A stretch of DNA of 64,000 nt from Taibaiella koreensis. GTDB lineage: Bacteria > Bacteroidota > Bacteroidia > Chitinophagales > Chitinophagaceae. The stretch is from NCBI RefSeq assembly GCF_003545715.1, contig NZ_QVNU01000006.1, positions 62,001-126,000 on the forward strand. Direction: 5' to 3'. Shown one piece after another: positions 43,531 to 64,000 of this stretch (within the stretch, counting starts at the first letter, position 1; each line of letters begins with the position of its first letter). A program made the translations under genes and the position numbers. Below the pieces are notes generated by a model. That model was not told where the DNA came from. It ran no database searches and worked only from the letters and a program-made list of their open reading frames with translations.

Positions 43531-43537
43531 AATGAGT

Positions 43538-44179: not shown

Positions 44180-44196
44180 TGTCTCTGATTTTTTGG

Positions 44197-44874: not shown

Positions 44875-44876
44875 AA

Positions 44877-47348: not shown

Positions 47349-47374
47349 ACTTCACAAATCTTTTTAGATGATCT

Positions 47375-48515: not shown

Positions 48516-48525
48516 ATGCGTTGTC

Positions 48526-48957: not shown

Positions 48958-48958
48958 C

Positions 48959-49384
48959 TTAATATCGCTTTGGTTTATGCGTTTTCTTTCTGTTGCTCGC
49001 CAAAGCTGTTAACTGCACTGGCGGCCGCTCGATCTGCTTTGCTGCTTTATACCCCTGGCGCTGGGCCAGGCCATCAGGATCGATATGCCTGAGCGGCGGT
49101 ACGATAATGATGCGTACATGATCCGGTATCGCGCTTGTCTTCTCAATATTGCCGAGGTATAAATTCTTTGTTTGGGTATCGTAGAGGAAATGGGAAAAGC
49201 CCATCTCCTCCTTGATACTGCCCATCGTCATGCGGTTGCCGGCATTGTCCACCTGGCGAAATTCATGACGCTGAATGTCCGCGAAAAACAATGTGCCGTC
49301 AATGTCCACCTGTGGCAGCGCCCGCGGCGCCTCCTGTTCCACATGCTGTAGCTGCGGAAAGCCTAAGTAATCGTCCATGCCCAT
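48959..49384 (-). CDS. Conjugation-module protein of unknown function (paralogue of 47375)
   Basis: This 141-residue protein corresponds to the middle and C-terminal part of the paralogue at 47375: PQVDIDGTLFFADIQRHEFRQ, then HFLYDTQTKNLYLG and PDHVRIIIVPPLRHIDPDGLA. It ends basic. It starts 3 bp after the traE stop. A shorter and a longer version of one family within one operon may form a complex, but this is unknown. Confidence 0.6.
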   Translation of the reverse strand: MGMDDYLGFPQLQHVEQEAPRALPQVDIDGTLFFADIQRHEFRQVDNAGNRMTMGSIKEEMGFSHFLYDTQTKNLYLGNIEKTSAIPDHVRIIIVPPLRHIDPDGLAQRQGYKAAKQIERPPVQLTALASNRKKTHKPKRY

Positions 49385-49386
49385 CG

Positions 49387-49722
49387 TTATATCCCGAAAA
49401 AGCTTTTGATTACCGTCGCCACCACCACCAGGAAGATGCAACTGCCAAACCAGGCCGCCGCGACTTTTGAGGTATCCGGGTCCCCGGCATTCCATTTCTG
49501 ATAAACCTTTACGGCGCCGATCAGGCCAAGGACGGCCCCTACTGCATACATCAGGTCGGTACCGTCATCGAAATAACCGCGGACCTTTGTGTTGGCCTCC
49601 CGTATGCCCGCGGAACCGTCCTGAGCATAGGTATAGATTGATAAACCAAGCATTACGGCCACGGCCAGGGCATGCTTCGCCCTACGGAGCAGTCTTTCAG
49701 CTCCCCACTTCACGTTTCCCAT
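49387..49722 (-). CDS. traE: Conjugative transposon protein TraE (DUF4134)
   Basis: This 111-residue protein has a signal-type helix (ALAVAVMLGLSIYTYAQ), then GIREANTKVRGYFDDGTDLMYAVGAVLGLIGAVKVYQKWNAGDPD and a final membrane segment, the TraE/DUF4134 (VirB2-like pilin) pattern. The start is the ATG at 49722. It is first in the recognised tra gene set. Confidence 0.9.
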   Translation of the reverse strand: MGNVKWGAERLLRRAKHALAVAVMLGLSIYTYAQDGSAGIREANTKVRGYFDDGTDLMYAVGAVLGLIGAVKVYQKWNAGDPDTSKVAAAWFGSCIFLVVVATVIKSFFGI

Positions 49723-49839
49723 CTTCAAATAATTATTGTAATAAAAGAGCTTAAAAAAATACCGGGGAGCGCCAACCAACCACCACTATTCACCCACTTC
49801 CGGCGCTCCCGGCATTTATATTTTTCTTTCCGGCATCCC

Positions 49840-49970
49840 CGCCTGTCAGGGCGGGGAGCGGGAAAGTGGTCGCGGCGCTACTTCACCAACCAAACCGATC
49901 ACCGGCCGCAACCGAAAGAACCAGGCAAGCCTTCCCAATCACCCCTGCCTAACGCACATCAGGCTTGCCC
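49840..49970. other. G+C-rich hairpin cluster (possible oriT or promoter)
   Basis: Between traE and the lipoprotein gene lies a more G+C-rich stretch with two inverted repeats: CCCCGCC/GGCGGGG near 49845-49858, and GGCAAGCCT (49922) with AGGCTTGCC (49962). This is the sort of structure found at transfer origins, but no relaxase gene is beside it. Confidence 0.3.
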
Positions 49971-49990
49971 GGTCACTAATTAAAATTTCT

Positions 49991-51106
49991 TTATTGTCTT
50001 ACCTCACGATCAACCACCTGGCCACGATAGGTAACCTTAAAGTGGAAGTTGAAGTGCTGCAGAATGATCTCGTTAAAAAATCCATTGGCGGTCCATTTCA
50101 TCGTTTTCTCAAATTTGTTCTCCGCATAGCTATTGAAGGACGGCCACCCGGGACTGGTCTGATTGCTCCAACTGATCAATGGTATACCGGGGATCATAAC
50201 CTTTCCTTTTGCGCAAGCCTCCATGACAATTTCATCCGCATAGGTATTGCTGAGCCAGCCAGCGAAACGGGTGTCTTTGAGCATCTGAACCCTTGCCCCG
50301 GTCGAGGCATAAAAGATATAGCCGACACGCCAGCGATGATAGTTCAGCTTGACCTCTCTCCCGTTATGCTCAGGGAAAGGGTTACCGTTGTCGTCCCGGT
50401 ACATATCACCGCCTACTTTGCCCCACCATTGCGGCATAAGGCCTGACGGATACTCACAGATCGGTTTACCGCTTGGCCTGTCCGGGCCGTCACCGCTAAC
50501 CCATTCAGGAACTGGTAATGGCAGACCGAAAGAGGTGTCATGAGGCAAGGCGCCTGGCAAGAATTTTGGGCTCTTACCGCCTGCAATAGCGGGCGACTGG
50601 GTAGCCGGTACAGAATACGACTCACCATTTTTGGTGCCGCCCCTGAAGCAATACACCGTATCGCCGATCTGTATGTTGCCGTCCTTACTAAGCATGGTAG
50701 CGAACCAGCTATCGGGGCAATCCAAGATCTTTCCTGATCTCATAAGAGAGTCCGTGGTTAGGTTCCTCCTGTTATCGGATGTATCCCTGTCGTTGTCCTC
50801 ATAAAACTTCCGCAGGGAAGAGAAACCGGCCGCGTCGTACGGAGCTTCCCATTGGCTAAGCTTTGATGCGTCCTGGTATTTTTGCTGGAGCATCTCCATC
50901 TCTTTTTGAAAATGTTCGAGTGACTGAAATTGCAGCCAGCCATAGTTCAGCTTGATACTGCCCGGAACACTTCTGGCGAAATTGCTTGTTGCGCCTTTGC
51001 CGCTCACCCCAGACTGGGGCATACTTACTTCCTCCCGCTTACAGCTGTATATAAAGCCGGCAAGCAATAATCCCAGGCCGAGGCCGATTGCATAGTTTTT
51101 TTTCAT
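49991..51106 (-). CDS. Conjugation-module lipoprotein, unknown
   Basis: This 371-residue protein has a lipoprotein signal (LLLAGFIYSCKRE, lipid Cys near 22). The mature part is Pro/Gly/Trp-rich with no known domain (YGWLQFQSLEHFQKEMEML at the start, and WWGKVGGDMYRDDNGNPFPEH later). It lies upstream of traE in the same direction, with a 268-bp gap, so it may belong to the module. Confidence 0.65.
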   Translation of the reverse strand: MKKNYAIGLGLGLLLAGFIYSCKREEVSMPQSGVSGKGATSNFARSVPGSIKLNYGWLQFQSLEHFQKEMEMLQQKYQDASKLSQWEAPYDAAGFSSLRKFYEDNDRDTSDNRRNLTTDSLMRSGKILDCPDSWFATMLSKDGNIQIGDTVYCFRGGTKNGESYSVPATQSPAIAGGKSPKFLPGALPHDTSFGLPLPVPEWVSGDGPDRPSGKPICEYPSGLMPQWWGKVGGDMYRDDNGNPFPEHNGREVKLNYHRWRVGYIFYASTGARVQMLKDTRFAGWLSNTYADEIVMEACAKGKVMIPGIPLISWSNQTSPGWPSFNSYAENKFEKTMKWTANGFFNEIILQHFNFHFKVTYRGQVVDREVRQ

Positions 51107-51185
51107 GTGATTTGATTTTAAATAGATGAATTGTTTGGTGTACTCTTTTTGTTGCGGCAGGTTCGGATCATCTCCTGCCTTTGTG

Positions 51186-51635
51186 TTAGCCGGGTAACTC
51201 GTCCCAGGCGGTATTCAGTTCCGCCTCACTGAACGTGAGCCCGCAAATCTCTTCGCCATTTTTAATAATGAAATTGTTGATAGCAAGCCGGAAGGCAGGC
51301 AAATGTAACCCATCATAGTAGGCCAGGCGGGACTGAAGCTGCCGGAGCAACTTATCCTTGTTGGCGCTTTTGCCTGCAACTTCCAGTATGCTGTGGCGTA
51401 TGTCTGTAACGATGTTTTCAAGTTCGGTGAAGGCCGCTTCGGGATCTTCTTCAAACTGATCTTCAGGGGATATTTCTTCTGCAGCTGCAGCTTTACGGCC
51501 AGGCAGCTTTGGGCCGTTTTTAATAAAGGCCTTGGCCTCTTTGCGGTAGTAAATAAATCCTACCACCAGGTACCAGATCGCGGTCAGGATAAGGACCGCC
51601 TCCAGGTACTGTTTCCATGAGATTGATTGTAGCAT
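51186..51635 (-). CDS. Membrane protein of unknown function, conjugation module
   Basis: This 149-residue protein has one membrane helix (YLEAVLILTAIWYLVVGFIYY) and an acidic helical cytoplasmic part (EEISPEDQFEEDPEAAFTEL). The ATG at 51635 is chosen because the segment up to it starts right before the membrane helix. It precedes the lipoprotein gene. The repeat-containing region at 51717 upstream may be its promoter. Confidence 0.6.
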   Translation of the reverse strand: MLQSISWKQYLEAVLILTAIWYLVVGFIYYRKEAKAFIKNGPKLPGRKAAAAEEISPEDQFEEDPEAAFTELENIVTDIRHSILEVAGKSANKDKLLRQLQSRLAYYDGLHLPAFRLAINNFIIKNGEEICGLTFSEAELNTAWDELPG

Positions 51636-52078
51636 TGTCTTCAGTTTTGTTCGGGACCATTCCCTGATTGTCTGAAGCAAAAGTGCGGTGGAAAATGAGC
51701 GTGCTCTTACAACCCGTCTGAAGGTTCAGAAAATTTATTTCTGAAAGAAAAAAGAGATAAAAGGAGTAGAACCCGACAAAGCCTCCGTTTAAAGCTTATT
51801 TCAGGGGGAGATTTTTAAGTAGAACTGGAAGTAATCTGAAGGTTCAGATTTTTTATTTCTGTCAAAAAAATCTTAAAATAGGTTGATTGTTGGATCGTCG
51901 GTGAATTATTGGCACAAAAAAGGCTGCTTTGGTTGCGGTCTATACAAACAACCGTGAAGCAGTAAAGGCTTATGTACTCATGCTAAATACAAATGCGTAG
52001 AAATACGTGATTAGATCTCATCTCTGCGGAATTTTATTATTCTAACTTATCTTCGTTAAAACCCAAAACGCCATTGTT
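51636..52078. other. Upstream regulatory region of the tra genes
   Basis: No gene is seen. Two copies of TCTGAAGGTTCAGA (51717-51730 and 51835-51848), each followed closely by a T-rich TTTATTTCTG, are 118 bp apart. TATCTTCG at 52048 resembles a -7 box for the plus-strand gene at 52079. Confidence 0.5.
51717..51861 (-). promoter_or_regulatory. Paired palindromic sites TCTGAAGGTTCAGA
   Basis: The 14-bp sequence TCTGAAGGTTCAGA occurs twice, at 51717-51730 and 51835-51848, with TCTGAA/TTCAGA arms. Both are followed by TTTATTTCTG. They lie upstream of the leftward tra-associated genes and could be operators. Confidence 0.5.
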
Positions 52079-52375
52079 ATGAAAACTAAAATTCTTTTAT
52101 CCGCTGTTTTTTTTACTGCAACGTTATGCATAGGACACTCACGGGCTATGGCACAGGGAGGATCGACCGGAGGTGACGGTAGATCTAAACATGCAAAGCA
52201 AGCACCCAAAACCCAGAACAAATCAAACAATGCAAAAGGTGAAAAGAGCATTGCAAAATCTGTTGAAAGCAAAAGTGCAACAACTCCGAAAATGGGAAAG
52301 AGTGATAAGAACATTGCAGGCAATAAAGCTGAGGGCGGTCATACCGGTAATGGCAAGAAGAAATCCTCACAGTAA
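52079..52375 (+). CDS. Small exported basic protein
   Basis: This 98-residue protein has a signal peptide (LLSAVFFTATLCIGHSRAMAQ) and a very polar mature part rich in Lys, Gly, Ser, Asn (such as SKHAKQAPKTQNKSNNAKGEK), with no fold predicted. Function is unknown. It is the only rightward gene inside the tra block. Confidence 0.6.
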   Translation: MKTKILLSAVFFTATLCIGHSRAMAQGGSTGGDGRSKHAKQAPKTQNKSNNAKGEKSIAKSVESKSATTPKMGKSDKNIAGNKAEGGHTGNGKKKSSQ

Positions 52376-52420
52376 ATGATAAGTAGCTTCAAGACTTTTT
52401 AAGAGAACTATCGAGGAATA

Positions 52421-52450
52421 AAAAAAGCCGCCAGTTAAATGGCGGCTTCA
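52421..52450 (-). terminator. Terminator of the RteC-like gene
   Basis: A 9-bp stem (AAGCCGCCA at 52425-52433 with TGGCGGCTT at 52440-52448) with a 6-base loop. On the minus strand, a run of six T follows it, so it ends the leftward gene at 52471. Confidence 0.8.
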
Positions 52451-52470
52451 TTCATTACATTGCTCTTCGA

Positions 52471-53319
52471 TCATTCATTTTTTTGCTGTATTTTTCTTTC
52501 GACGGCAACCCTCATCCCGTTGATATATGGGGTGGTGTCTTTTTTACGGATGGCCATACCCAAAACCGCCCGGTAGATGTTGTCGAGTTTGATATTAAAC
52601 ATGCGCTCGAAATCCCCGGCCAATTCCTTAATGCCGCCATCACCATGATTTACCCAGCCCATTTCAGCAATACCGATAACCATTTCTTCGGCCGCAGCCT
52701 TTGGCCCGGTCCACGTACGGCGTCTTTTAGCGGCCGCGGGTTCCTGCCCCGCACCTGGCTCGACTTCCTGCTTTCTCCGGAGCAGGTTGTTAATATAATT
52801 CTTTAACTGATCGTAAGCTTGTAGCTTAGCCAGGTTATAACTATGAGGCGTGGAGAAATTGTGGTCCATTTCTGCTGTCGCCATTAGTAGCGGCGGTGAT
52901 CCGGGATTCTCCTCATTCCTTACGAAGTAATGTGCATCGCTTTTGCTGGTCCCTAAAAGATGATACAAGCGAAGCGGCCGGTATTGCAGGAAGAATCCGT
53001 CGATTTTTTTTAATTCCTGCTTATAATACTTCCGCATCTCTGCTTCAGCCCCAACCGGTCTGTTCGCTTCAAAGTAATATAGTTTCTGAAAATAAATGAG
53101 CTCACTTTGAAACTGCGGTTTGATCTTTTTGAAAAAAAGGATTTCCTCTGCTTCATCCTTAAAGTCGTAATCTAATATATATTCCTTTAATCTTTTAATA
53201 AGCGAGGATATAAAGAAAAATGAACGTTCGGCTTGTTGGAGTTGATTTTCTGCGCCGAGTGAAATTTTTTGAAGCCCTTCTGTCATTTCACCAAGAAGGG
53301 TGTCCGTGAATTGTTTCAT
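52471..53319 (-). CDS. rteC: RteC-like regulator of conjugative transfer
   Basis: This 282-residue protein has the RteC pattern: a helical N-terminal region, FFKKIKPQFQSELIYFQKLYYFEANRPVG, YYKQELKKIDGFFLQYRPLRLYH and the C-terminal INNLLRRKQ, IAEMGWVNHGDGGIKELA. RteC controls excision and transfer of CTnDOT-type elements. The ATG at 53319 is used; another ATG at 53328 gives three extra residues. It is the right-most gene of the module and has its own terminator. Confidence 0.85.
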   Translation of the reverse strand: MKQFTDTLLGEMTEGLQKISLGAENQLQQAERSFFFISSLIKRLKEYILDYDFKDEAEEILFFKKIKPQFQSELIYFQKLYYFEANRPVGAEAEMRKYYKQELKKIDGFFLQYRPLRLYHLLGTSKSDAHYFVRNEENPGSPPLLMATAEMDHNFSTPHSYNLAKLQAYDQLKNYINNLLRRKQEVEPGAGQEPAAAKRRRTWTGPKAAAEEMVIGIAEMGWVNHGDGGIKELAGDFERMFNIKLDNIYRAVLGMAIRKKDTTPYINGMRVAVERKIQQKNE

Positions 53320-53701
53320 AATTCGCATTGGGTGTTTGGTTATAAAAAACGCTTACTCTTTACATGCATGTTTCAAAGCGACAAGACGAAAGTAACGGGC
53401 AGCAATACAATATCATGTTCGTTTTTGGGTGTAATTGAATCAAGCAGGTAAATTAAAATACTGAAGTACTTCATTTCACAACGAAGCGCTCTAAGCAATT
53501 TACATTATCATATTTATACGAATGTTTAACTATACCTATAAAAATGTTTAAATTTTTATCCGCTTAACAAATTTTTGATTTATGCTGAAGTGACTGAATA
53601 GATGCTAATGAAATTTACAATTGATTGTCGCTCACAGGATAATCATTGTTGTTGACGATTATTTTTTCAATACTTCCTTAAGCCTTTTACCTTAAGGCGT
53701 T
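53320..53701. promoter_or_regulatory. Upstream region of lanB with repeat operator
   Basis: This A+T-rich region holds the direct-repeat site at 53624-53656 and a hairpin (CCTTAAG at 53676 with CTTAAGG at 53691) five bases before the lanB start. A mini frame of 15 codons at 53608 runs through the site and is not credited. Confidence 0.5.
53624..53656 (+). promoter_or_regulatory. LytTR-type direct repeat operator upstream of lanB
   Basis: ATTGTCGCTCAC (53624-53635) and ATTGTTGTTGAC (53645-53656) start 21 bp apart, two helical turns, the layout bound by LytTR regulators as a dimer. The same motif occurs in the kinase/precursor gap at 58189. Confidence 0.65.
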
Positions 53702-56470
53702 ATGAAAGTCCGTATTTATCCAAGGGTACTTTTTCGCGTACCAGCTTTTTCCCTTGAGGAAACCCTGTCCGATAAGTGGGAAGACCTTAAAGCGGCCATT
53801 GCCAAGTCCTCCGGCGATTTCTACGAGCTCATTGCGGATACAACACAAGATCAAATAAACACTTTACCGGAACCCGTTCAGCAGACGCTGTGGAAATACT
53901 TCAACCGTGCAAAGTACCGGGCAACTCCTTATGGTGCATTTGCCGGCGTCGGGATTTGCCCGATCGACCCGGCCCCGTTGCAGATATTCGCTTCACAGAG
54001 CCTATACGTGATGACTGGTTGGTCTGAGCCTATTGAAGACAGGCAATGCCAGGCTCAAACCATTTTCCGGGCCAATACAGCCTTGTACACTGTAAAAAAT
54101 CGCATTCGTTACCTGCGTAACCGTAACGGTCAGTTTGAATTGACGGAACTTGAAGTTGACGATCAGATAAAAAAGATCCTTCGGGCAGCGGAGGATGGTA
54201 TTTCGTTCGAGGACTTATCGCTAATAGTAAAGGCCGATTTTACCAAGAGGACGCTACAAGGATTGCTGGCTAATCTTCAGGAACGTCAGCTGATATATTC
54301 CAATAAGATGCCAAACCTGATCGGTGAAGATTTCTTTACCCGGCATTCAATACCTCCTGGAGCGCAGCCTCCCTATATCATTGCTACACGGGCATGGCAA
54401 GCCGGCGGCCTTGATCCGGTTACCATTCGCCATCTTCCGGAATTGATCGAAAAACTAAGACGAACAATACCGGTAAAAAAACAAACAGACCTCGAAGCCT
54501 TCAAAGTCGCTTTCAAAAAGAAATTTGACTTCCGGGAAGTGCCGCTCATGAGAGCGCTCGATCCCGAGCTAGGCATAAGCTATGGTAGCCTGGATTTAAA
54601 TACACAAGAACCGGAACTGGTTTCGGAACTGGCGAACCGGCGCAGCCCATCCGGAGAGCGGGAAGATCAGAAGCTTTTAGACCACCTTGCAAAATTTTCC
54701 GGGTGGTCCGATGAGAATATGGCGTTTTCCTTAGAAAAGTTTCCAGATTTTACGGATAATCCGCAATTGTTGCCAAATACCTTTAATGTGATAGCCTCGC
54801 CCTTTGGTGAAGGGCTTTGTATTGAGACTGCCGGAGGGGCAACGGCAACAGCGCTGCTCGGCAGGTTCAGTCACGCGGGGCAGGATTTTCATGAACTGGC
54901 CCGGGAACTGGCCCAGGTCGAACAGGACGCCAACCCGGAGGTTCTATTTTTTGATATCGCCTATAGCGCCGAACCGCAGATCGACAATGTAAACCGGCGA
55001 AGGAATATCTACAATCACCAGGTCAATATCCTCAATTATGGCGAAGGCGCCGGGTGTATTCCCATCAGCGATATAAGGATAGCGATGGTTAAGGGTGAGC
55101 TGCAATTACGGTCATGTAGCATGAACAAACGGTTGATACCGCGCATGGCATCTGCATATAATTTCAGCCGGTCGCAACTTTCTTTGTTCCGTCTTTTGGC
55201 AGATCTACAATATCAGGGCTTACATAACCGCCTAACATTCGACCTGCAGGAGTATTTTCCGGGAAAGCAGTTTTACCCACGCGTAACCTTTAAAAATCTT
55301 ATCGTTTCGCGGGCTAAATGGATATTAGAGAAGCAAAGCTTTGATGTAGATTCACTTAAACAGTACTTACTGACGCTGGGAGTGCCGGCTAATTTCCGAA
55401 CAGTCAACGGCGACCAGCGCCTTCAGTTTGATGTTCACAATGATACTGATCTAAAAATCCTGGCGGGAATGCTGAAAAAATTATCACTGGTTATCGAAGA
55501 ATCACCGCTTTCAGCAGAAACGCCCCGGGTAATAGATGTTCACAATAAGCCTTATGCGGTGGAGTTCGTTATTCCCTTGTATCATAACGAAAGTATATTC
55601 CGGCCGTTTATTCCTGATCTACCACAGCGGGAAAGCGATCAAAGCGATTTCATGCCTGGACAGGGCTGGCTTTACTATGAGATCTTCTGTCACCCCTGCC
55701 GTGCGAACGACCTGCTTCAAAACAAACTAGCCCGGTTTGTAAAGCGTCACCATAAAATGATCCGTAAATGGTTTTTCATCCGCTACTTTGAAGCTGGGCA
55801 TCACATCCGGTTTAGAATGCTACTAAAGGAACAGTCGCATCAGGGTATCATTACCCTGGGGTTGAATGAACTGCTTCAAGAGGACTTACAGACAGGTATC
55901 ATCTCTGATGTTACCCTGCGGACCTATCACCGGGAGATGGAGCGTTACGGTCATGATATAGACGGAACAGAAAGTCATTTCTGTGTTGACAGCCGTTTTG
56001 TCCTGGCAATGCTTCGTGATTCTTCTGATCCGTTCCGGTACATTTGCCTTTGCCATCGGCTCATGAACGACATCAGGCAATCCAGGGTGCTGCCGGATGG
56101 TATGGTTGATGATCTGAATCACTTTTCATGCAATGTATTCGCTGAAGAGCATCGGCTAAGCGGCAAAGAGTTCAGCGAGCTCAATGACAATTACAAATCA
56201 TATCTGCAAATACATGGTGATGAACTTAATAGTTACCAGGAGAAGCTATATAGTCGCTTTTCACTTTCGTTCAAGAACGCTCTAACGACCTGCCCGCCGG
56301 AAAGACAAAAACAGCTCTATTTGAACCTGATACATATGCATTGTAACCGGCTCTTTACGGAACACCAGCGCACCTATGAACTGCTGGTTTATTACTTTTG
56401 GGAACGGGCAGCAAAGGCTGAGAAAAGTAAAGCAAAGCAGCCCGCTAACCAAATCCCAGCTTTCGCTTGA
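53702..56470 (+). CDS. lanB: LanB-type lantibiotic dehydratase, full length
   Basis: This 922-residue protein should glutamylate and then eliminate Ser/Thr in a precursor peptide to give dehydroamino acids. The N-terminal dehydratase domain starts YPRVLFRVPAFS and has YFNRAKYRATPYGAFAGVG (residues 66-84). The C-terminal thiopeptide-type/SpaB_C elimination domain (about residues 650-905) has GWLYYEIFCHPCRANDLL and WFFIRYFEAGHHIRFRM. Both parts are fused, unlike split LanBs. It lies next to the LytTR pair and two short precursors, with a repeat operator before it. It overlaps the convergent regulator gene by 26 bp. Confidence 0.93.
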   Translation: MKVRIYPRVLFRVPAFSLEETLSDKWEDLKAAIAKSSGDFYELIADTTQDQINTLPEPVQQTLWKYFNRAKYRATPYGAFAGVGICPIDPAPLQIFASQSLYVMTGWSEPIEDRQCQAQTIFRANTALYTVKNRIRYLRNRNGQFELTELEVDDQIKKILRAAEDGISFEDLSLIVKADFTKRTLQGLLANLQERQLIYSNKMPNLIGEDFFTRHSIPPGAQPPYIIATRAWQAGGLDPVTIRHLPELIEKLRRTIPVKKQTDLEAFKVAFKKKFDFREVPLMRALDPELGISYGSLDLNTQEPELVSELANRRSPSGEREDQKLLDHLAKFSGWSDENMAFSLEKFPDFTDNPQLLPNTFNVIASPFGEGLCIETAGGATATALLGRFSHAGQDFHELARELAQVEQDANPEVLFFDIAYSAEPQIDNVNRRRNIYNHQVNILNYGEGAGCIPISDIRIAMVKGELQLRSCSMNKRLIPRMASAYNFSRSQLSLFRLLADLQYQGLHNRLTFDLQEYFPGKQFYPRVTFKNLIVSRAKWILEKQSFDVDSLKQYLLTLGVPANFRTVNGDQRLQFDVHNDTDLKILAGMLKKLSLVIEESPLSAETPRVIDVHNKPYAVEFVIPLYHNESIFRPFIPDLPQRESDQSDFMPGQGWLYYEIFCHPCRANDLLQNKLARFVKRHHKMIRKWFFIRYFEAGHHIRFRMLLKEQSHQGIITLGLNELLQEDLQTGIISDVTLRTYHREMERYGHDIDGTESHFCVDSRFVLAMLRDSSDPFRYICLCHRLMNDIRQSRVLPDGMVDDLNHFSCNVFAEEHRLSGKEFSELNDNYKSYLQIHGDELNSYQEKLYSRFSLSFKNALTTCPPERQKQLYLNLIHMHCNRLFTEHQRTYELLVYYFWERAAKAEKSKAKQPANQIPAFA

Positions 56471-57146
56471 GCGCTTCCCTGTATTTGCGGCCGATGGGAA
56501 TTCGGTCGCCATTGATCAGTTTGATGAAAAAGAAACTATAGGAGTTTAGCTTTTTCAGGTTAACCATATAAGACCGGTGTACCCTTAAGAAATGATCACT
56601 TTGCTGTAACGCTTCCTCCAGGTAATTCATGCTGTGATGCGCCACATGTATTCCTGCAACAGTCTTGATCTGTGTATACGTATCTGCGCTTTCTAAATAC
56701 AATATGTCCTCCAGCTTTATCCTTACCTTATTTTTTCTTTGGTCGGCATAAACTACCAAGTATTGTTCTTCTGATTTCCGTTCCCGCAGCCTGGATAATA
56801 CTTTATCAATACACTTATTGAACCGTTCGGCAGAAACCGGCTTAACCAGGTAATCGACCACATCCAGGTCATAAGCCTGGGCTGCAAAATCAGGATAGGC
56901 CGTTACAAAGACGATAGTGGTAAACTGAGAAAGTGGTTTCTGAACTTCAATGCCCGAGGTTTTCGGCATCTCGATATCCAGAAAGGTAATATCCGCCTGA
57001 ATTTCTCCGTTGCGGAATCTATTCAAGGCACGCCCGGCTTGTGTATCAGAACCCAGGAAAGTCAGATCAGGATGGCCTTCGATCAATCGTTCCAGCGCGG
57101 TGATACTCCTTACTTCATCATCGATGACATAGCAAACGTACTTCAT
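56445..57146 (-). CDS. LytTR response regulator
   Basis: This 233-residue regulator has a receiver domain (CYVIDDEVRSITALERLI, Asp57 in ITFLDIEMPKTSG, Lys in DYLVKPVSAE) and a LytTR DNA-binding domain (KVRIKLEDILYLESADTYTQIKT, then HRSYMVNLKKL and GRKYREAL). LytTR proteins bind direct repeats about two helical turns apart, matching the sites near lanB and the precursors. The kinase gene overlaps its start by 4 bp, so they are a pair. It is convergent with lanB. Confidence 0.95.
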   Translation of the reverse strand: MKYVCYVIDDEVRSITALERLIEGHPDLTFLGSDTQAGRALNRFRNGEIQADITFLDIEMPKTSGIEVQKPLSQFTTIVFVTAYPDFAAQAYDLDVVDYLVKPVSAERFNKCIDKVLSRLRERKSEEQYLVVYADQRKNKVRIKLEDILYLESADTYTQIKTVAGIHVAHHSMNYLEEALQQSDHFLRVHRSYMVNLKKLNSYSFFFIKLINGDRIPIGRKYREALKRKLGFG

Positions 57147-58156
57147 AGTTCGATACTCAGGGCAACTTCAAAATGTATAGCGTCTTCTTTGATCAGCAGC
57201 TGGTGCTTCAACGGGTAGAATTGGTCAAGGCGAAGCCGCAGGTTGGCTAATCCTATGCCGTACCTACTCTTAAAGCCCCCGGCAGCCTTTTTGTGGTTAC
57301 GCGTAAATATCTTGAGCTGTTTTTCCGCTAATGTGATCCGTATATCGGCTATCTCTGACGGATCATCGGTAACACCGTATTTGAAGACATTCTCAACCAG
57401 CGTAATCAGGATGAGCGGAAGGATACGCAAGCGTTCCCCATCGGCAACGTCGATGAATACATTTAGCTGCAATTCTGATTCTTTACGGCTTTGCTGCAGG
57501 GCAAGGTAAGTGCGGAGGTATCGCACCTCGTCATCGAAGTTGACCTTCCCGTCGGGCTCCGGCTGCCGGTAAGCATAATGCATCAGCTCGGCAAGGTTGG
57601 TGATGGTCGTTGCTGCTCCTGGGTGCGTGGCGATAATGTCTTCCCTGAGGTTATTGAGTACGTTGAATATAAGATGGGGATTGGCCTGCGCCCTGTAGTA
57701 ATCCAGCTCTAATCTGGCTATCGTCAATTGCTGGTTTAGCAAGGTCGTTCTTTGGGCAAGCATCCGCCGTCCGAGCCAATAAGTAATGCTCAGTCCAAGC
57801 AGGTAAATACTCCGGTAAATATTCTTTAAGAGCGTAACGTGGTCCTGTAAAATAGCGGCCAGCAATTGGTTAAATTTTGTACCACCTTGCCACTCTCCAA
57901 TTACGGTAATGATAAGGAAGTACAGCAGTGTTTCCAGAACTACAAGAACAATAGTCAAAAGTTTGTAACCCTTTTCCCATAGTGGCATGACCAAGTACGC
58001 ATTAGCATAAAACCATATAATAGCCAGGGCGTAATATGGGATGTAAATCGAATAATCGATGTTGTGTCCCATAAAGAATATAAATGTTACCTCGTAGCCA
58101 ATAAACAGTATGATCGCTATAACATGGGCAAACCAACCAGGAAATACAGGGCGCAT
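57143..58156 (-). CDS. LytS/AlgZ-type sensor histidine kinase
   Basis: This membrane kinase has about four N-terminal membrane helices (HVIAIILFIGYEVTFIFFM, YALAIIWFYANAYLVM and others), then the His_kinase domain: ARLELDYYRAQANPHLIFNVLNN with the conserved His, and an ATPase domain (ILITLVENVFKYGV, RYGIGLANLRLRL). The frame opens at 58318 (TTG) with an ATG at 58297, but I prefer the ATG at 58156: it begins just before the first membrane helix and leaves the repeat array (58189-58264) as intergenic regulatory DNA. The start remains a hypothesis. Confidence 0.85.
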   Translation of the reverse strand: MRPVFPGWFAHVIAIILFIGYEVTFIFFMGHNIDYSIYIPYYALAIIWFYANAYLVMPLWEKGYKLLTIVLVVLETLLYFLIITVIGEWQGGTKFNQLLAAILQDHVTLLKNIYRSIYLLGLSITYWLGRRMLAQRTTLLNQQLTIARLELDYYRAQANPHLIFNVLNNLREDIIATHPGAATTITNLAELMHYAYRQPEPDGKVNFDDEVRYLRTYLALQQSRKESELQLNVFIDVADGERLRILPLILITLVENVFKYGVTDDPSEIADIRITLAEKQLKIFTRNHKKAAGGFKSRYGIGLANLRLRLDQFYPLKHQLLIKEDAIHFEVALSIEL

Positions 58157-58188
58157 AATATAAAGTTTTGCATTTAACAGACGTTTTG

Positions 58189-58264
58189 ATTGTCGCTCAC
58201 CTGAAAATAAATTGTCGTTTACTCCAAGAACCATGTCGTCTACCCGATAATGCATGTCGTTGGC
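58189..58264 (+). promoter_or_regulatory. Four-copy LytTR-type repeat array between kinase and precursors
   Basis: ATTGTCGCTCAC (58189), ATTGTCGTTTAC (58211), CATGTCGTCTAC (58232) and CATGTCGTTGGC (58253) start 22, 21 and 21 bp apart. The first copy equals one upstream of lanB. It lies between the divergent kinase and precursor genes if the kinase begins at 58156. Confidence 0.65.
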
Positions 58265-58349
58265 AATTATCCGGGAAATCGGATCAAAAACCGTCATAAT
58301 TTTACTGTAGGAAATCAATTAAATCTTTACTAACTAAGCATTAAAAGCA

Positions 58350-58499
58350 ATGAATTCAAAAAGAAAAACAACTGGCATTATTAAAGAGAAAAATCTGTTC
58401 ACATTTAAGAAACGTAGTGGCCAGGGCACCACGATGGGCCCTTCCGATCCAACCGGCAATACTATTTTCACCATTCCTACCTTGACCAAATTTTGCTAA
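58350..58499 (+). CDS. Lanthipeptide-like precursor 1, terminal Phe-Cys
   Basis: This 49-residue peptide was found by reading the sequence directly. A basic N-terminus (MNSKRKTTG) and IKEKNLFTFKKR form a leader whose F-T-F-K could act like the FNLD box of class I lanthipeptides. The predicted core ends SDPTGNTIFTIPTLTKFC, with many Thr and one Cys as last residue. It is divergent from the kinase and lies 28 bp before a paralogue; the fused LanB is 1.9 kb away. A lanthionine ring from the last Cys to an upstream dehydrated Thr is a reasonable guess. Confidence 0.75.
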   Translation: MNSKRKTTGIIKEKNLFTFKKRSGQGTTMGPSDPTGNTIFTIPTLTKFC

Positions 58500-58527
58500 A
58501 AAATCAGTACGTTTTAATCACAATTCT

Positions 58528-58674
58528 ATGAACACCAAAAGAAAAATTTCGAGAATCAAAGAGCAGAACTCGTTCACCTTCAAGGGACGTCAGGCCCAGA
58601 CAAATGCAAAAGACGCCTCTGACCCTACGGGTTCTACTGTTTTTACAATACCAACAATCACTCGTTTCTGCTAA
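58528..58674 (+). CDS. Lanthipeptide-like precursor 2, terminal Phe-Cys
   Basis: This 48-residue paralogue of the gene before it starts MNTKRKISRIKEQNSFTFKGR and ends SDPTGSTVFTIPTITRFC. Shared parts are KRK, IKE-N-FTFK, and the 18-residue end, with conservative exchanges (Ile/Val, Leu/Ile, Lys/Arg). The middle (RQAQTNAKDA) differs. Conservation at leader box and core end, with drift between, is the pattern expected of a RiPP precursor pair. It may give a two-peptide product or two variants. Confidence 0.75.
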   Translation: MNTKRKISRIKEQNSFTFKGRQAQTNAKDASDPTGSTVFTIPTITRFC

Positions 58675-58997
58675 GAAAATTTACAATTCCGATCATTGGT
58701 GTACCAATCCACGGTGCACCAATATCTCCCCTTCATAAATTTACCTTACATTCTGTTTTACAGGAAGTATCTAAAAGCATAATACTTGCAATCAGCCACT
58801 TATAAGCCTTTATCAATTGTTAGCTATTCATTAACATTCGCACCTATCACCTTGAAAGTATAACATGGCCATAGTTATACAATACCTCAGAACAGTACAC
58901 TGTTCATGATGATACCTGTTCTCACCGGTGCCGGGATGGCACATCACGGATTTACCTCAATCAAAATTTTCATTCCAAGCATTCTTAACTATTGAAA
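58675..58997. other. Intergenic stretch after the precursors
   Basis: No gene is supported. It has a short tandem-like segment (GGTGTACCAATCCACGGTGCACCAAT, 58699 on) and A+T-rich sequence before the small exported gene. I see no terminator or -7 box of good quality. Confidence 0.4.
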
Positions 58998-59330
58998 ATG
59001 AAAAAAGTAATCTTTTCCGCTGCCCTGATGATGGGCCTTTCCGCTGCTGTTTTTGCCGGCGCTCCTAAAGGAGACGCGAAAGACGCATCTTCCGCAAAAT
59101 CTGAAACAGAGGCCGGCGCCGTAGTGAAATGGTTTCACTTTACCGGTGACGCTACGGACGACGATCAATTAAGTGATCCATCAATGTACCAAGCCGAGGA
59201 TGCTCCGACTTGCCCGGATAACAATCCTCAGGACTACCGTTGTGACATTAAAATTTTGTCCAATTCAACGGGTAATCAACCTGACCTGTCCCAGAGCATC
59301 CAGCAGACAAGAACAAGGGTTACTCCTTAA
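58998..59330 (+). CDS. DUF6520-like small exported protein
   Basis: This 110-residue protein has a signal peptide (KKVIFSAALMMGLSAAVFAG) and the DUF6520-like pattern: VVKWFHFTGDATDDDQLSDPSMYQ, then PTCPDNNPQDYRCDIKI with two Cys. The ATG at 58998 is used, not the TTG at 58992. Proteins of this kind occur in Bacteroidota near SusC/SusD or peptide genes; the function is unknown. It is downstream of the precursors in the same direction and ends at a terminator. Confidence 0.75.
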   Translation: MKKVIFSAALMMGLSAAVFAGAPKGDAKDASSAKSETEAGAVVKWFHFTGDATDDDQLSDPSMYQAEDAPTCPDNNPQDYRCDIKILSNSTGNQPDLSQSIQQTRTRVTP

Positions 59331-59364: not shown

Positions 59365-60696
59365 TTATTTATCACGAATGACTAATTGTTTGATCATTAA
59401 TTCTTTTTCAGTAATTGCTAAGCCGTACCGCTTTAACTCTTCCCTGAGCATCTCGATATCTGAAAGCGAATGAATTTTTATTTGCAGATCTACCGGCCCT
59501 GTAACTCCCGATTGATCAATTACCGGATTGGCCAGCCGGTCGGATTGGTTAAGCTTTGATACAAATGGTAACAAGGAGGAATTTACAAGGGTAAAAGTTC
59601 CTTTTTGCATCAGTACTTTACTTTCCGAACTCAGGCTTGCACCTTTACGCTCTAAGCTATCTGCTGTCTTTATCAAGACATAGCATTTTGTCCGGCGAGA
59701 TTCAATTACGCCTTTATAGGGTAGTACGGCCTCCAGATCTGATCGCATCTTACGGTATAAGTGACCAGACGAGTCTGGTCTTACCTTCACCTCATAGCTC
59801 CAGAGGTTCTTTCGTTTCCAGTCGTCCAACTGCCTGGTGTTACGAGGCTCTGACAGAGCTATTCGATCATTCACTTCAATAATTAGCCGCTTATTGACTT
59901 TACTTCCAAAAATCGGGTAATCGTAGCCGTATACTTCAGTATTATAGGCTGATTGTAAAAGATTAAGCGGATTGGCATTTACCGCCTTAAAAGCTCGTGG
60001 AAACCCGCTTACGGAATCTTTCTCTACAATAATCGGGCTATCAAAGGTATATTCAAATAGCCCACGCATTAAAATGGAATATGAATCTACCAGATTACTA
60101 AACGTGCCAGCTTGCTCAATGAGAGGTGCATCTTTATAAATATTGTCTTTCTTGTGGCTCATCTTCATAGATTTCCGGTCTAAAAAATCCTGCACATTTT
60201 GCCGTGTCGCGTTGTATTCAAACGTTGCCAAACGGTATATCCCTTGCTGGTCTATCCAAACATGGTGAGGTTCTCCATAATGAGGGAACAATTTGTTCAA
60301 TAAAGTATCCTGCGTAATTACAGCCAAATTTGGAATACGTAGTTTGATCCGATCAAACAGCTTATTAACCTCTTTATCGGTATTTCTTGTTACAAGAATG
60401 ATCTGAATTTTATTGCCAAATTCTTTTTGGAGACTATCCATCCTTGGCATGGCCGCAATACAACTGGTACACCAGATGCTAAAAAAATCAAACAGCAATA
60501 CTTTTCCTTTGAGTTGCGCTGATTGCATTTTCTTTTCCGGCTGATTAAGAAAATGCCCGATACCGAAGTTTCCGATCGCTTCATCCTGCCGGATGGCCTT
60601 AACCTGAGCATGCACATCAGGAAGACCTGAAAGAAAAAATAATAAACATAAAGCCACAACATGTAGCCTGGAATAACTTAAATTAATATCCTTCAT
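59365..60696 (-). CDS. Thioredoxin-like (TlpA-type) exported protein
   Basis: This 443-residue protein has a signal peptide (ALCLLFFLSGLPDVHAQ) and a TlpA-type domain: GKVLLFDFFSIWCTSCIAAMPRMD with a C-T-S-C active site, then GEPHHVWIDQQG. The long C-terminal part (about residues 190-443) has no known domain. It should act in the periplasm as a thiol reductase or isomerase. Its start overlaps the susD stop by 14 bp, so it is cotranscribed with SusC/SusD. A redox role on a Cys-containing peptide cargo is possible (inference). Confidence 0.85.
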   Translation of the reverse strand: MKDINLSYSRLHVVALCLLFFLSGLPDVHAQVKAIRQDEAIGNFGIGHFLNQPEKKMQSAQLKGKVLLFDFFSIWCTSCIAAMPRMDSLQKEFGNKIQIILVTRNTDKEVNKLFDRIKLRIPNLAVITQDTLLNKLFPHYGEPHHVWIDQQGIYRLATFEYNATRQNVQDFLDRKSMKMSHKKDNIYKDAPLIEQAGTFSNLVDSYSILMRGLFEYTFDSPIIVEKDSVSGFPRAFKAVNANPLNLLQSAYNTEVYGYDYPIFGSKVNKRLIIEVNDRIALSEPRNTRQLDDWKRKNLWSYEVKVRPDSSGHLYRKMRSDLEAVLPYKGVIESRRTKCYVLIKTADSLERKGASLSSESKVLMQKGTFTLVNSSLLPFVSKLNQSDRLANPVIDQSGVTGPVDLQIKIHSLSDIEMLREELKRYGLAITEKELMIKQLVIRDK

Positions 60697-62071
60697 TTTG
60701 AATCAGTTTGGTATTGATTAAAATTTGCGCATAGGGAATCGGGTACCAGGCCGCATATGACTTCCAGGTAGGCTTTATTGCACCTATTACGTCATCGATT
60801 CGACCGGTTCGTTTTAAGTCCAGCCAGCGATGGCCCCATTCAAAACATAGTTCTATCCTGCGTTCATGCTCTATGGCTTTAGTAAGATCAGATTTTCCGA
60901 TAGAAAGGCTTAAAGGGTCTAGTCCAGCGCGTTTCCGAATTACATTTAAATCTCTAACGGCGCTTTCCAAGTTGTTATTCATTGTCCTTGCCTCAGACCT
61001 TATAAGGTAGAGTTCAGCCAAGCGAATGGCCATGTTATATTCCGTTACGGCCGTTACGCCTTTACCGACTTTATATTTAAACGGGTAATAAATAGTCGCT
61101 CCATTGTAGACCCGCGATTTGATCCAGTTTCCAAGTCGTTTGTCACCCGGTTCAAAATCCGAAACAAGATTTTGTAACACTATATAGGTGGGCGCAGCTG
61201 AAGTAGAAGCGGGTAGAAAAAAACTGGCATCCCAGGTATTATAATTTGGCGTAACCGGAGCCAGTTGCCATATTGCTTCCCCGCTATTAGCCAAAAAAAC
61301 GTTATTTAGATCCTCTACGATTTGATACTTTGAATTGTCGATAACCGATCCGGCCATCTGATCAGCAGCTGTATAGTCTTTTAAATAGAGATATACTCTG
61401 GCCAATAGTGCCTGTGCTGCAGCCTTGTTCGGCCTTACACGGCCTGCGGATGGATAATCATCTTTTAAAAGATTAATGGCACGCAATAAATCAGTCGTAA
61501 TCTGTTTGTATACCTCGTTTGGCATGGATTGTCCCAAATCTTTAGTAATCCTGTAATCTGTTGTGGTTACCAAAGGCACTTTCCCGAAAATGTTAGCCAG
61601 GTAAAAATTAATAAATGCACGGACGAATAAGGCTTCTCCTATTACCATGTCTTTTGTTGCAGCGGAAATGGACACGGATTTTTCTGCCCCTTCGATACAA
61701 CTGTTTGCCTGATAGGCAAGGGCATAAAAAGGGTTCCAGAAGTAACTTTCTATCGTGAGATTGTTGGCTCTTGTAATTTGATCTTGCATAAATTCATCCC
61801 GATTAGAGGTCGTGTAGTATGCAAGCTCGTCCGACGACATACCTGTGTAAAGTGTAATGGAACTCGCTGTGGGAAATGCGGAGCTACCCATCATTTTACT
61901 GTAGATGCCATTAAGCGTAGCAATGGCTGTAGCATCATCGGCAAATGCGGTCTGGCTCACAATCTGATCTTTAGGAGGTGGTATTTCTACAAATTTTTTA
62001 CAGCCGCCACCGAGCACAGTCCATACCAGAACTAATGCCATTATAGTGATTTTTGATAATTTTCTTTTCAT
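60683..62071 (-). CDS. SusD/RagB-family lipoprotein
   Basis: This 462-residue outer-membrane lipoprotein has a signal ending WTVLGGGCKKF (lipid Cys near residue 24). The SusD pattern is present: IATLNGIYSKMMG, RAFINFYLANIFGKVPLVT, NKAAAQALLARVYLYLKDYTAAD and RRIELCFEWGHRWLDLKRTG. It binds substrate for the SusC channel. The ATG at 62071 is preferred over TTG at 62077. It lies 10 bp after susC in the same direction. Which substrate is imported is unknown. Confidence 0.95.
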   Translation of the reverse strand: MKRKLSKITIMALVLVWTVLGGGCKKFVEIPPPKDQIVSQTAFADDATAIATLNGIYSKMMGSSAFPTASSITLYTGMSSDELAYYTTSNRDEFMQDQITRANNLTIESYFWNPFYALAYQANSCIEGAEKSVSISAATKDMVIGEALFVRAFINFYLANIFGKVPLVTTTDYRITKDLGQSMPNEVYKQITTDLLRAINLLKDDYPSAGRVRPNKAAAQALLARVYLYLKDYTAADQMAGSVIDNSKYQIVEDLNNVFLANSGEAIWQLAPVTPNYNTWDASFFLPASTSAAPTYIVLQNLVSDFEPGDKRLGNWIKSRVYNGATIYYPFKYKVGKGVTAVTEYNMAIRLAELYLIRSEARTMNNNLESAVRDLNVIRKRAGLDPLSLSIGKSDLTKAIEHERRIELCFEWGHRWLDLKRTGRIDDVIGAIKPTWKSYAAWYPIPYAQILINTKLIQNEGY

Positions 62072-62081
62072 GCTCAATTAA

Positions 62082-64000
62082 TTAAAGTCCTGCTTTGATA
62101 CCAACTGTGATAGTACGCAAAGGAGGCAAAATGTAAGTGGACTGGACTTCGGGATCAGGGCCCGGATATTTGGAAATGGTCAACAGGTTTTGTCCTTCCA
62201 GATAAACGTTCAGAGACTTGATCCTTGCCGGCTTTATCCAATGGCCGGGGAACTGATAGCTTAACGATGCCGTTTTAAGCCGGATATAAGAAGCATCAGT
62301 TAACTGCGCACTGGAATTAGATACTCTGTCATAGGAATCCGCCAATTCCGTCCCGTAGGCTTGCGTAAATTTCGCATACCTGGCCTGGTCTCCCGCTTTG
62401 GTCCAATGGTTGTCTACCACGTATTTGGGGATATTGCCAATCCCACCAAGCAAGGAACTAGTGCTAAATATTGGCTCACGTCCCATTTGTTTGGTGAATT
62501 GAAATAGGACACTTAACGCGAAGCCACGGAAAGTGAAGGTGTTTTGAAAACCACCATAAAATCGTGGGTCGGTATTGCCAATAATTACGTAGTCTTTATC
62601 ATTATAGACACCATCGTTATTCTGATCCTTGACTTTATAAACACCTGTTTGCAGGTCTACCCCAAGGTACTGATATCCGAATTGGACGCTTAACGGCTGG
62701 CCTATGGCAAAGCTGTTAGCGTAACTGGAATTTGCCAGGTCAGGGAAGCGTAAAAGCCTATTGCGGGGAACAGTAATATTAAAATTAGTTGTCCAGGAAA
62801 ATTTACCGGATTTGATATTATCCGATCTTAATTCGATCTCCCAGCCTTTATTTTCTACCCTGCCTGGAAAATTCAATAAAATGGAAGCAAAGCCGGTTTG
62901 CCCGGGAAGAGAGTAATCGATCAACTGGTTATCACTTCGGTTACGGTAATAGTTTCCCGATATATAAAACCTGTCATTAAAAAAGCCCAATTCAACGGCC
63001 GCCTCTAATTTTGTAAATTGTTCCCAGCTGTAATCTTTGTTAAAGAGCCGTGTTGGCAGCAGACTGAGTGCCTGTTGATAGGTTAACGTACTTGGGGCAT
63101 AACTATCCAAATAATTGTAATTTCCAATCTGGTCGTTGCCCGAGGTTCCAAAGCTCAACCGAAGCTTTCCAAAGCTTAAAAAGGTTTGCTTTTCCTTAAA
63201 GAAATCAAGCTGCGAGAAGATCCATCCCGCGCCTATCGAACCAAAATTGGCAAATTGGTTTCCGGGACCAAATCGCGAAGAACCATCCCTACGACCTGTA
63301 AAATTGAGTAGATAAGTATCCTCCCAGTTTAAGGTGAGTCTACCGAAAATGGCGTTGTAGTGATATAAATTATAAGCGTTTCGTGCCTTTATCGTAGCTG
63401 CGCCGCCAATCGTATTGATCAGCGCGTCGCTTACATAGCCAGAACCGGCCATATAGTCTTTGATGCTTTCGTTTTGTTGAAAGCTGGTACCAATAACAGC
63501 ATCAAACCGGCCTTTACTTTTAAAGGAACCTGAGTATTGCAGCTGCGGCTCGACGCTCCAGTTGCGGGTAAGCGTATGTCCGAAGCTTGCACTCCCTTTT
63601 ACGTTATTGACTGGATTTTGTGCAGCGATAGGATTATTTAGGTTCTCATTATAATCCAATAAGTTATATCCGCCGTTTGCCTTAAGAACCAGGCCAGGTA
63701 GTAGTCGGTAGCTAACCACCACACCGGTTGTAACCAAATCGGTAAAGCCATTGTAATGTTTTAAGGTGACATTTAAAGGATTGCCGTAATACTCCGCTGC
63801 CCCGGTCCATATCAATCTTCCACTGGGGTCCTTAAAGGTAAAGCCGTAAGGAGGTATGGGAAGCCTTTGTGTAAGATCATCTGGGATGAGTTTGCTTTGA
63901 TTATAGGCATAACTTGAGGATAGCTGTAAATTGAATTTTTTATCCGTAGAAGAATGACTAACCGCGAAATTGATCGATTTCCGGTTACTGCCAAAGTCAC
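62082..64000 (-). CDS. SusC/RagA-family TonB-dependent outer-membrane transporter (5' part outside)
   Basis: The C-terminal 638 residues of a SusC-type TonB-dependent barrel are present; the N-terminal signal, plug and carboxypeptidase-like domains lie outside the window. Typical barrel phrases are RLTLNWEDTYLLNFTGRRDGSSRFG, GNYYRNRSDNQLIDYSLPGQTG, NRLLRFPDLANSSYANSF and SYQFPGHWIKPARIKSLNVYLEGQNLLTISKY at the end. The frame is continuous to the window edge. It is followed by susD and the redoxin gene, so the three form an import operon next to the RiPP locus. Confidence 0.95.
   Translation of the reverse strand, partial: DFGSNRKSINFAVSHSSTDKKFNLQLSSSYAYNQSKLIPDDLTQRLPIPPYGFTFKDPSGRLIWTGAAEYYGNPLNVTLKHYNGFTDLVTTGVVVSYRLLPGLVLKANGGYNLLDYNENLNNPIAAQNPVNNVKGSASFGHTLTRNWSVEPQLQYSGSFKSKGRFDAVIGTSFQQNESIKDYMAGSGYVSDALINTIGGAATIKARNAYNLYHYNAIFGRLTLNWEDTYLLNFTGRRDGSSRFGPGNQFANFGSIGAGWIFSQLDFFKEKQTFLSFGKLRLSFGTSGNDQIGNYNYLDSYAPSTLTYQQALSLLPTRLFNKDYSWEQFTKLEAAVELGFFNDRFYISGNYYRNRSDNQLIDYSLPGQTGFASILLNFPGRVENKGWEIELRSDNIKSGKFSWTTNFNITVPRNRLLRFPDLANSSYANSFAIGQPLSVQFGYQYLGVDLQTGVYKVKDQNNDGVYNDKDYVIIGNTDPRFYGGFQNTFTFRGFALSVLFQFTKQMGREPIFSTSSLLGGIGNIPKYVVDNHWTKAGDQARYAKFTQAYGTELADSYDRVSNSSAQLTDASYIRLKTASLSYQFPGHWIKPARIKSLNVYLEGQNLLTISKYPGPDPEVQSTYILPPLRTITVGIKAGL

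Follow-up and report, generated by a model that had tools for sequence, protein, structure and literature searches.

A conserved cassette of LanB dehydratase, Thr/Ser-rich precursor peptides and LytTR two-component system in Taibaiella koreensis and other Bacteroidota, a possible agr-like peptide signalling system

Gene content of the locus

The window analyzed here is a stretch of 64,000 nt from Taibaiella koreensis (GCF_003545715.1, NZ_QVNU01000006.1, positions 62,001-126,000 of the forward strand). It has two tandem ORFs with ATG starts on the forward strand, encoding precursor peptide 1 (58350..58499, 49 aa) and precursor peptide 2 (58528..58674, 48 aa). The first-pass annotation took both for real genes built on a common plan, and this is borne out. 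The peptides share the blocks KRK, IKE-N-FTFK and an 18-residue end, SDPTG-T-FTIPT-T-FC, with one terminal Cys each; they align with 29 identities and one gap over 49 columns (BLASTP E 2e-19, as a single comparison), and their genes differ at 14, 11 and 30 nucleotides in codon positions 1, 2 and 3, respectively (dN = 0.30, dS not estimable), a concentration at third positions that makes the twin ORFs look coding.

The same strand carries lanB (53702..56470), a full-length class I dehydratase of 922 aa with the Lant_dehydr_N domain for glutamylation and the Lant_dehydr_C domain for elimination (PF04738, 4.3e-58; PF14028 (Lant_dehydr_C), 2.3e-45). Between lanB and the precursors, the reverse strand encodes a LytTR-type response regulator (56445..57146; Pfam LytTR 5.1e-19, Response_reg 9.8e-13) and a sensor histidine kinase (57143..58318; His_kinase PF06580, 7e-15), for which an ATG at 58156 is the more likely start than the TTG at 58318, given the lengths and starts of the kinases of the relatives. 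The AF2 model of the kinase (pLDDT 84, pTM 0.55) has helices at residues 7-28, 35-56, 65-90 and 106-158, interpreted here as roughly four membrane helices joined by short loops; by this one predicted model, a polytopic kinase without an extracytoplasmic domain adjoins the precursors together with its LytTR regulator. This pair, passed over in the first-pass annotation, is the most informative functional evidence at the locus.

Past the precursors there are genes for a small secreted-looking, DUF6520-like protein (58992..59330, forward strand) and, on the reverse strand, for a thioredoxin-like protein with WCxxC (59365..60696; Pfam AhpC-TSA 4.6e-07), a SusD/RagB-type protein (60683..62077; Pfam SusD_RagB 8.1e-26) and a SusC-type TonB-dependent receptor (62082..64000; Pfam TonB_dep_Rec 5e-10), whose complete frame of 1132 aa runs past the window end.

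The LanB dehydratase

A phmmer search against the PDB aligned the window LanB with NisB and MadB. In this alignment, R83/R87/T89 and R786/R826/H961 of NisB, which we take to be its catalytic residues, correspond to R69/R73/T75 and R705/R748/H878 of the window LanB; across 30 LanBs of the family, the window's included, there is no variation at the five R/H positions and hardly any at T75. The AF2 model (pLDDT 85) has MadB, NisB and MibB as its best PDB matches, and we read its residues 134-200, predicted as strand-strand-helix-helix-helix-strand, as the likely place of a leader-binding RRE. PEARL-type C-terminal addition of an amino acid is unlikely for an enzyme whose elimination domain is intact, residues included. 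This LanB very probably dehydrates the precursor peptides, and the initial assignment of the twin ORFs as RiPP precursors and LanB substrates is well supported by the conserved synteny and the leader motif described below. The genome also encodes a second LanB of 1066 aa (contig C16, L032 6879-13594, reverse strand), followed by what appear by eye to be a peptidase-type ABC transporter and an HlyD-like protein.

The precursor family and its gene order in relatives

A contig scan yielded 269 relatives, of which the best 80, mainly from Pedobacter, Mucilaginibacter and Chitinophagaceae, were kept, giving a set of 81 loci with the window (L031 and L108 being one locus). A precursor profile, built from 22 seed peptides and iterated, was searched against 7,802 ATG ORFs of 25-110 aa from 82 sources (1.8 Mb), and it matched 127 peptides (E < 0.001), including the 22 seeds, in 65 of the 81 loci. 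All 127 lie at most 1.3 kb from the kinase gene or, in L052, where there was no kinase match, from lanB. Eight kinase loci without a significant profile match (L076, L093, L102, L104, L106, L108, L110 and L111) have, as picked by eye, a short ORF in the equivalent place, Thr-rich in most. The copies per locus, as called, range from one to eight, the count of eight in L047 including broken copies with N or frame breaks, and 43 of the 65 loci have a single copy.

An alignment of 39 hand-chosen precursors, with those of L076, L093, L100 and L108 below the profile threshold, contains a leader with a Lys-rich start and a T-x-F-x-Y/F-K strand, followed by a core that frequently begins with D/N-P-T and ends in a Thr/Ser-rich tail; T and S make up 19% and 12% of the last 25 residues of the precursors. 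Neither the FxLD nor the LxLxKx5L motif of class I leaders is present in this alignment. Annotation with a known family was rejected, as none of the 39 peptides matches any NCBIfam model (E 0.05) and in Pfam two families match a single peptide each, at 0.043 and 0.048. Among tandem copies in one genome, the core is more alike than the leader in all 12 loci with at least three copies of 44-59 aa; the similarities are low in L064 (0.47 core, 0.20 leader) because its copies are unequal in length under a crude end-anchored comparison.

The search of related loci for the leader and terminal Cys pattern, a check named beforehand, had a divided outcome: the leader/core family is present, but the terminal FC is mostly absent. 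Cys is missing from every precursor in 52 of the 65 loci found among the window and the best 80 of 269 relatives, and a C-terminal Cys is thus not a trait of the precursor family. The loci with Cys are the window, L050, L101, L052, L057, L067, L068, L085, L087, L090, L095, L107 and L109, the Cys of L050 and L101 being mid-core. In L050 of Pedobacter rhodius (14087-14838), four of five tandem precursors have this mid-core Cys where relatives have Met (TILCTNSS versus TILMTNSS), and the fifth has Val.

The kinase was found in 72 and the regulator in 71 of the 81 loci (window and best 80 of 269 relatives), and in 63 of the 64 loci with both, the precursor and the kinase gene point away from each other; in the exception, L107, the precursor overlaps the called kinase ORF on the opposite strand. 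What is conserved across the loci is the set of a short precursor rich in Thr and Ser, a LanB of full length that keeps its catalytic residues, a histidine kinase and a LytTR regulator. A relative of the same genus (G001), with a LanB 38% identical, has the LytTR gene, the kinase gene and then one short ORF ending in SDPTSSLLTATTVSKTCLK, in the same order as in the window. The LanB tree has 63 rows, after removal of the short L109 frame and of Pedobacter rows that share 55% identity or more with L039 (eight of this group being kept), and includes six extra outside rows, the kinase scan covering the rows other than these six. A branch with SH-aLRT 100 places 42 of the 63 rows, including the window, on one side, 37 of them with precursor and kinase. 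The opposite side includes the second LanB of the genome, three rows with precursor and kinase (L097, L101 and L107) and six rows with the kinase only; as such rows occur on both sides of the branch, the association is wider than the 42-row clade.

Promoter repeats

Taking one locus per 55% LanB cluster (28 of the 65 loci), a 9-bp direct repeat with at most one mismatch and a spacing of exactly 21 bp was found in 10 of the 28 precursor promoters, compared with 0.98 +/- 0.90 in shuffles; the next best spacing, 22 bp, occurs in four, and 18 promoters have no 21-bp repeat at the threshold used. In the window, a putative regulator array of four TGTCGY half-sites (58191..58260, forward strand) has starts at 58191, 58213, 58234 and 58255, that is, with spacings of 22, 21 and 21 bp, and would lie inside the kinase ORF if TTG 58318 were the kinase start. 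Words resembling TAnnTTTG, the Bacteroidota promoter word, occur downstream of the array at 58297 and also at 53660.

Upstream of lanB there is a putative regulator site, ATTGTCGCT-N12-ATTGTTGTT (53624..53653, forward strand), with repeat starts 21 bp apart and with TGTCGC at 53626 and TGTTGT at 53647. The 15-mer TTGATTGTCGCTCAC at 53621 in the lanB promoter recurs at 58186 in the precursor promoter, and a common word of this length was present in 1 of 300 shuffle pairs. A comparison of the two promoters tolerating mismatches gave four mismatches for the window, equal to the best of 12 shuffles; of ten loci compared in this way, two (L085 and L067) exceeded every one of the 12 shuffles, and eight, with the window among them, did not. 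Generic 21-bp repeats upstream of lanB were rejected as weak (4 of 28, with 3 for the next best spacing). The exact array pattern has 12 matches in the genome, three of which are this array, with no second array among them. A wider regulon is not claimable, since the strict pattern has 12 matches against 41 for its reversed control and the loose pattern 60 against 40.

Covariation of the precursor core with the sensor

Distances were computed for the core, the leader, the sensor part, the kinase part, LanB and the regulator over 62 of the 65 precursor loci, 25 dereplicated loci and 29 Pedobacter loci (L060 being omitted for its truncated kinase). In the Pedobacter set, the partial correlation of core and sensor is 0.69, a value reached by 0 of 1999 permutations, with -0.05 for core and kinase, 0.08 for core and LanB, 0.14 for core and regulator (134/1999) and 0.13 for leader and sensor (107/1999). 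The core-sensor value is 0.67 after thinning to 23 Pedobacter loci, and 0.68 (0.66 thinned) with the fastest LanB columns as control, the core having a small correlation of 0.16 (42/1999) with these fast columns in the thinned set. Over the 62 loci, the correlations are 0.48 for core-sensor, 0.32 for leader-LanB, 0.19 for core-LanB and 0.37 for leader-regulator (each 0/999), and the leader-LanB and core-sensor pattern is broadly in line with recognition of the leader by LanB and of the core by the sensor. The core-sensor correlation is absent over the 25 strongly diverged loci (-0.04, 650/999), a negative result even though the cores are hard to align there; this set has core-regulator and leader-regulator correlations of 0.30 each (2/999 and 0/999, respectively) and a leader-LanB correlation of 0.27 (7/999).

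Otherwise about 90%-identical Pedobacter clusters have a divergent island over the sensor and the precursor, as in agr. When L066, L040 and L098 are compared with L039 in 150-bp bins, lanB is 81-98% identical (mostly about 90% or more), the kinase half 91-97% and the regulator 93-99%, with 52-67% in the sensor-coding bins and a divergent precursor region as well. The corresponding values for L066 and L039 are 86-98% for lanB, 92-97% for the kinase half, 95-99% for the regulator and 52-67% for the sensor bins, and their precursor regions align poorly in part because of different copy numbers. For L098 and L039, with one precursor copy each, the same sensor bins are 59-66% and the precursor bin 73% identical. 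This hypervariable region of signal and sensor is present in the 29-locus Pedobacter set, but was not seen across the 25 diverged loci.

Neighboring genes and release of the peptide

Other members of the Cys subgroup have a counterpart of the small protein at 58992..59330 downstream of their precursors: a profile of five such proteins, the window's included, matches it and seven other loci, three of which supplied seeds and four of which (L068, L085, L087 and L095) did not. Pfam gives DUF6520 at 0.0024, below the cut-off, for the L030 counterpart and has no match for the window protein itself. The thioredoxin-SusD-SusC block lies just past the precursor in 12 loci (the window, L052, L057, L067, L068, L071, L076, L085, L087, L090, L093 and L095), of which L071 has no precursor match and L076 and L093 have one below threshold; SusC and SusD occur elsewhere in the flanks of fifteen further loci. 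Beyond the window (L137 2083-7482, contig C20), the SusC has an STN-like N-terminus and is followed by FecR-like and sigma-like ORFs, as read by eye; Pfam detects FecR in the L030 counterpart only. It is possible that this SusC/FecR/sigma block forms a second, trans-envelope sensing route tied to the Cys-bearing peptides, the relation of the SusCD block to Cys precursors being one of association only.

No exporter or leader protease was identified among the conserved neighbors near the clusters, and the precursor peptides have, by eye, no obvious signal sequence or double-Gly site; release is the main gap in the signalling reading given below. PCAT-like ABC transporters match in 7 of the 81 loci (window and best 80 of 269 relatives), three of them weakly. 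The common neighbors in Pedobacter include HSP90, HsdR_N, OmpA/TPR, PorP/SprF, CHU_C, a receiver domain, DUF4241 and, at a distance of about 10 kb in 22 loci, an outer-membrane efflux protein; eight of ten representatives received Pfam names, and the recurring clusters also include one of 403 aa in 17 loci. These neighbors are judged to be mostly chromosomal synteny.

Proposed function and alternative explanations

The best reading of the locus, to which we assign a probability of about two in three, is that a peptide pheromone dehydrated by LanB acts in an autoinduction loop of the agr kind. Here it is proposed that LanB would bind the leader strand (FTFK in the window, FVYK elsewhere) and dehydrate Thr/Ser of the C-terminal core to Dhb/Dha. 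Once released from the cell, the core would be the ligand of the adjoining polytopic membrane kinase, without a ring in most relatives and perhaps with one C-terminal thioether ring in the window. On binding its ligand, the kinase would phosphorylate the LytTR regulator, which would bind the direct repeats spaced by 21 bp in front of the precursors, probably also those in front of lanB in this genome, and thereby raise signal production. The gene family, its synteny, the intact LanB residues, the core-sensor covariation in Pedobacter and the repeats with LytTR geometry are observed, and the dehydration, the exit of the peptide from the cell, its binding by the kinase and the direction of regulation are inferred. 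Weighing against this reading are the lack of a conserved exporter or leader protease among the identified neighbors, the negative result over the 25 diverged loci, the core-LanB correlation over the 62 loci, the adjacency of sensor and precursor genes, the 18 of 28 promoters without a 21-bp repeat and the weakness of the repeats upstream of lanB. A broader statement is only slightly favored, namely that these loci form a quorum-sensing family of Bacteroidota in which LanB dehydrates the pheromones and no cyclase is clustered; the pheromones would mostly be linear dehydropeptides without Cys and fall into agr-like pherotypes. The window would then represent a Cys branch linked to a block of SusCD, thioredoxin and FecR-sigma genes, which may serve to take up or sense the peptide.

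The peptides were initially placed with the class I lanthipeptides. As a definition of the family this is rejected on the LanC and Cys counts: LanC-like genes lie in the flanks (up to 10 kb) of 2 of the 81 loci (window and best 80 of 269 relatives), L113 and L116, neither of which has a kinase match, and the 52 of 65 loci without Cys mean that most products cannot be lanthipeptides. A ring is possible in the Cys subgroup of the window, where LanB and a LanC acting in trans could produce one C-terminal methyllanthionine ring (TKFC/TRFC), the Cys-less relatives being side branches. We regard this account as tentative and rather doubtful, and, as the chemistry of a subgroup, it is compatible with signalling. 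In its favor, among 14 Cys peptides Ser/Thr occupies position -3 from the last Cys in 11 and position -5 in 12, with 1 at -2, 2 at -4, and 6, 8, 2 and 9 at -1, -6, -7 and -8 (L093 and L076, below threshold, being counted, and L050 and L101 omitted for their mid-core Cys), a register compatible with a thioether ring of 4 residues. Elsewhere in the genome there are four LanC-like proteins bearing WCYG and CHG motifs (L035-L038, on contigs C18, C10, C19 and C2), and most Cys loci fall in an unresolved part of the tree together with the window and the large Pedobacter group. The four contigs carry neither of the two LanBs found in the genome.

The two-component system admits two other explanations. 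In one, which is unlikely, it is dedicated to switching on an antimicrobial RiPP (bacteriocin), with killing primary and sensing secondary. LanB enzymes and two-component regulation of production do occur together in lantibiotic clusters such as that of nisin, and some two-component systems sense the bacteriocin itself, which would give covariation too; the gene for the outer-membrane efflux protein, some 10 kb from the cluster in 22 Pedobacter loci, also fits. However, no immunity or transporter gene recurs near the clusters among the identified neighbors, the precursor copies in one genome are held to one core, and near-identical clusters diverge mainly in the sensor and the precursor. The other explanation, quite unlikely in our judgement, is that the system senses an unrelated cue, such as envelope stress or a nutrient, and controls a peptide of other purpose. 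As the sensor and precursor genes are adjacent, exchange of DNA blocks could yield covariation without binding, and the covariation would then be a by-product of recombination of neighboring DNA; its absence over the 25 diverged loci agrees with this, as does the best NCBIfam match of the regulator, far below the cut-off, to BtsR, a metabolite-linked regulator. Against it, the leader, which lies between sensor and core, has no clear covariation with the sensor (0.13, 107/1999; 0.09), and the correlation of core and sensor persists when LanB, kinase, regulator and leader are controlled for.

Comparison with known systems and significance

For the pheromone loop, nisin autoinduction and agr are functional precedents. 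In nisin-type class I lantibiotics, a LanB-modified peptide is combined with autoinduction through NisRK. The cassette described here likewise has a LanB-modified peptide and a two-component system; it differs in that LanC is absent locally and no transporter, protease or immunity gene was found to recur nearby, and in having a LytTR instead of a NisR-type regulator, a leader without FxLD and mostly no Cys. With agr (AgrBDCA) of staphylococci, as represented in excerpts of the literature on it, it has in common that a gene for a short precursor adjoins those of a sensor kinase and a LytTR regulator. According to the excerpted text of PMC10482373, AgrA has two 9-bp sites at agrP2 with 12 bp between them, and the hypervariable region of agr spans agrB, agrD and agrC. 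The 21-bp repeats seen in 10 of the 28 precursor promoters have this geometry (9 + 12 bp), and the hypervariability in signal and sensor genes of the Pedobacter set is similar to that of agr. Unlike agr, the system belongs to a Bacteroidota host, has a LanB dehydratase in the place of AgrB (no PF04647 match in the T. koreensis genome at E 0.001), and has precursors that are divergent from the kinase, often in tandem copies and mostly without Cys.

Within the same phylum and enzyme family, the class I lanthipeptides with LxLxKx5L leaders (PMC7268733) and the Chryseobacterium/Runella peptides (PMC9993889) differ, in the excerpts of these sources, in the presence of LanC and in their leader. By its excerpted text, the survey of Bacteroidota lanthipeptides restricted precursors to within seven genes of a LanC-domain protein, so that it would miss LanC-less clusters. 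Pearlins and pyritides, as excerpted from PMC11002830, resemble the present family in having a LanB homolog, no LanC and no Cys in the precursor; however, they use truncated LanBs, whereas the window LanB keeps the elimination domain (Lant_dehydr_C, 2.3e-45) and the catalytic residues. No description of a LanB/precursor/kinase/LytTR system was found in the open-licence PMC literature, a search that most subscription papers fall outside. The parts are of known kinds, and as far as searched, a full-length LanB lacking a clustered cyclase has not been described together with precursors mostly free of Cys and an agr-like sensor cassette in Bacteroidota.

If the pheromone reading is true, Bacteroidota would have a peptide language resembling that of agr, class I dehydratases would serve in something other than ring-forming lantibiotics, and LanC-less LanB genes, which can pass for incomplete lanthipeptide clusters, would be complete signalling systems. 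The reading makes it testable whether dehydroamino acids act as the recognition element of a pheromone, and the Pedobacter clusters provide natural core/sensor pairs in about 90%-identical backgrounds suited to specificity swaps.

Two further features of the window concern its surroundings. A separate class I lanthipeptide precursor with many Cys (33024-33389, forward strand; NCBIfam NF038153 lant_leader_L1a, 8.2e-09) is distant from both LanBs found in the genome, one being 20 kb away and the other on contig C16. Additionally, the reverse strand at about 41660-53330 carries genes of a Bacteroides-type conjugative transposon, with TraJ and TraG (NCBIfam) and RteC (Pfam); as some 370 bp separate these from lanB, the cassette may move together with an integrative element or alongside one.
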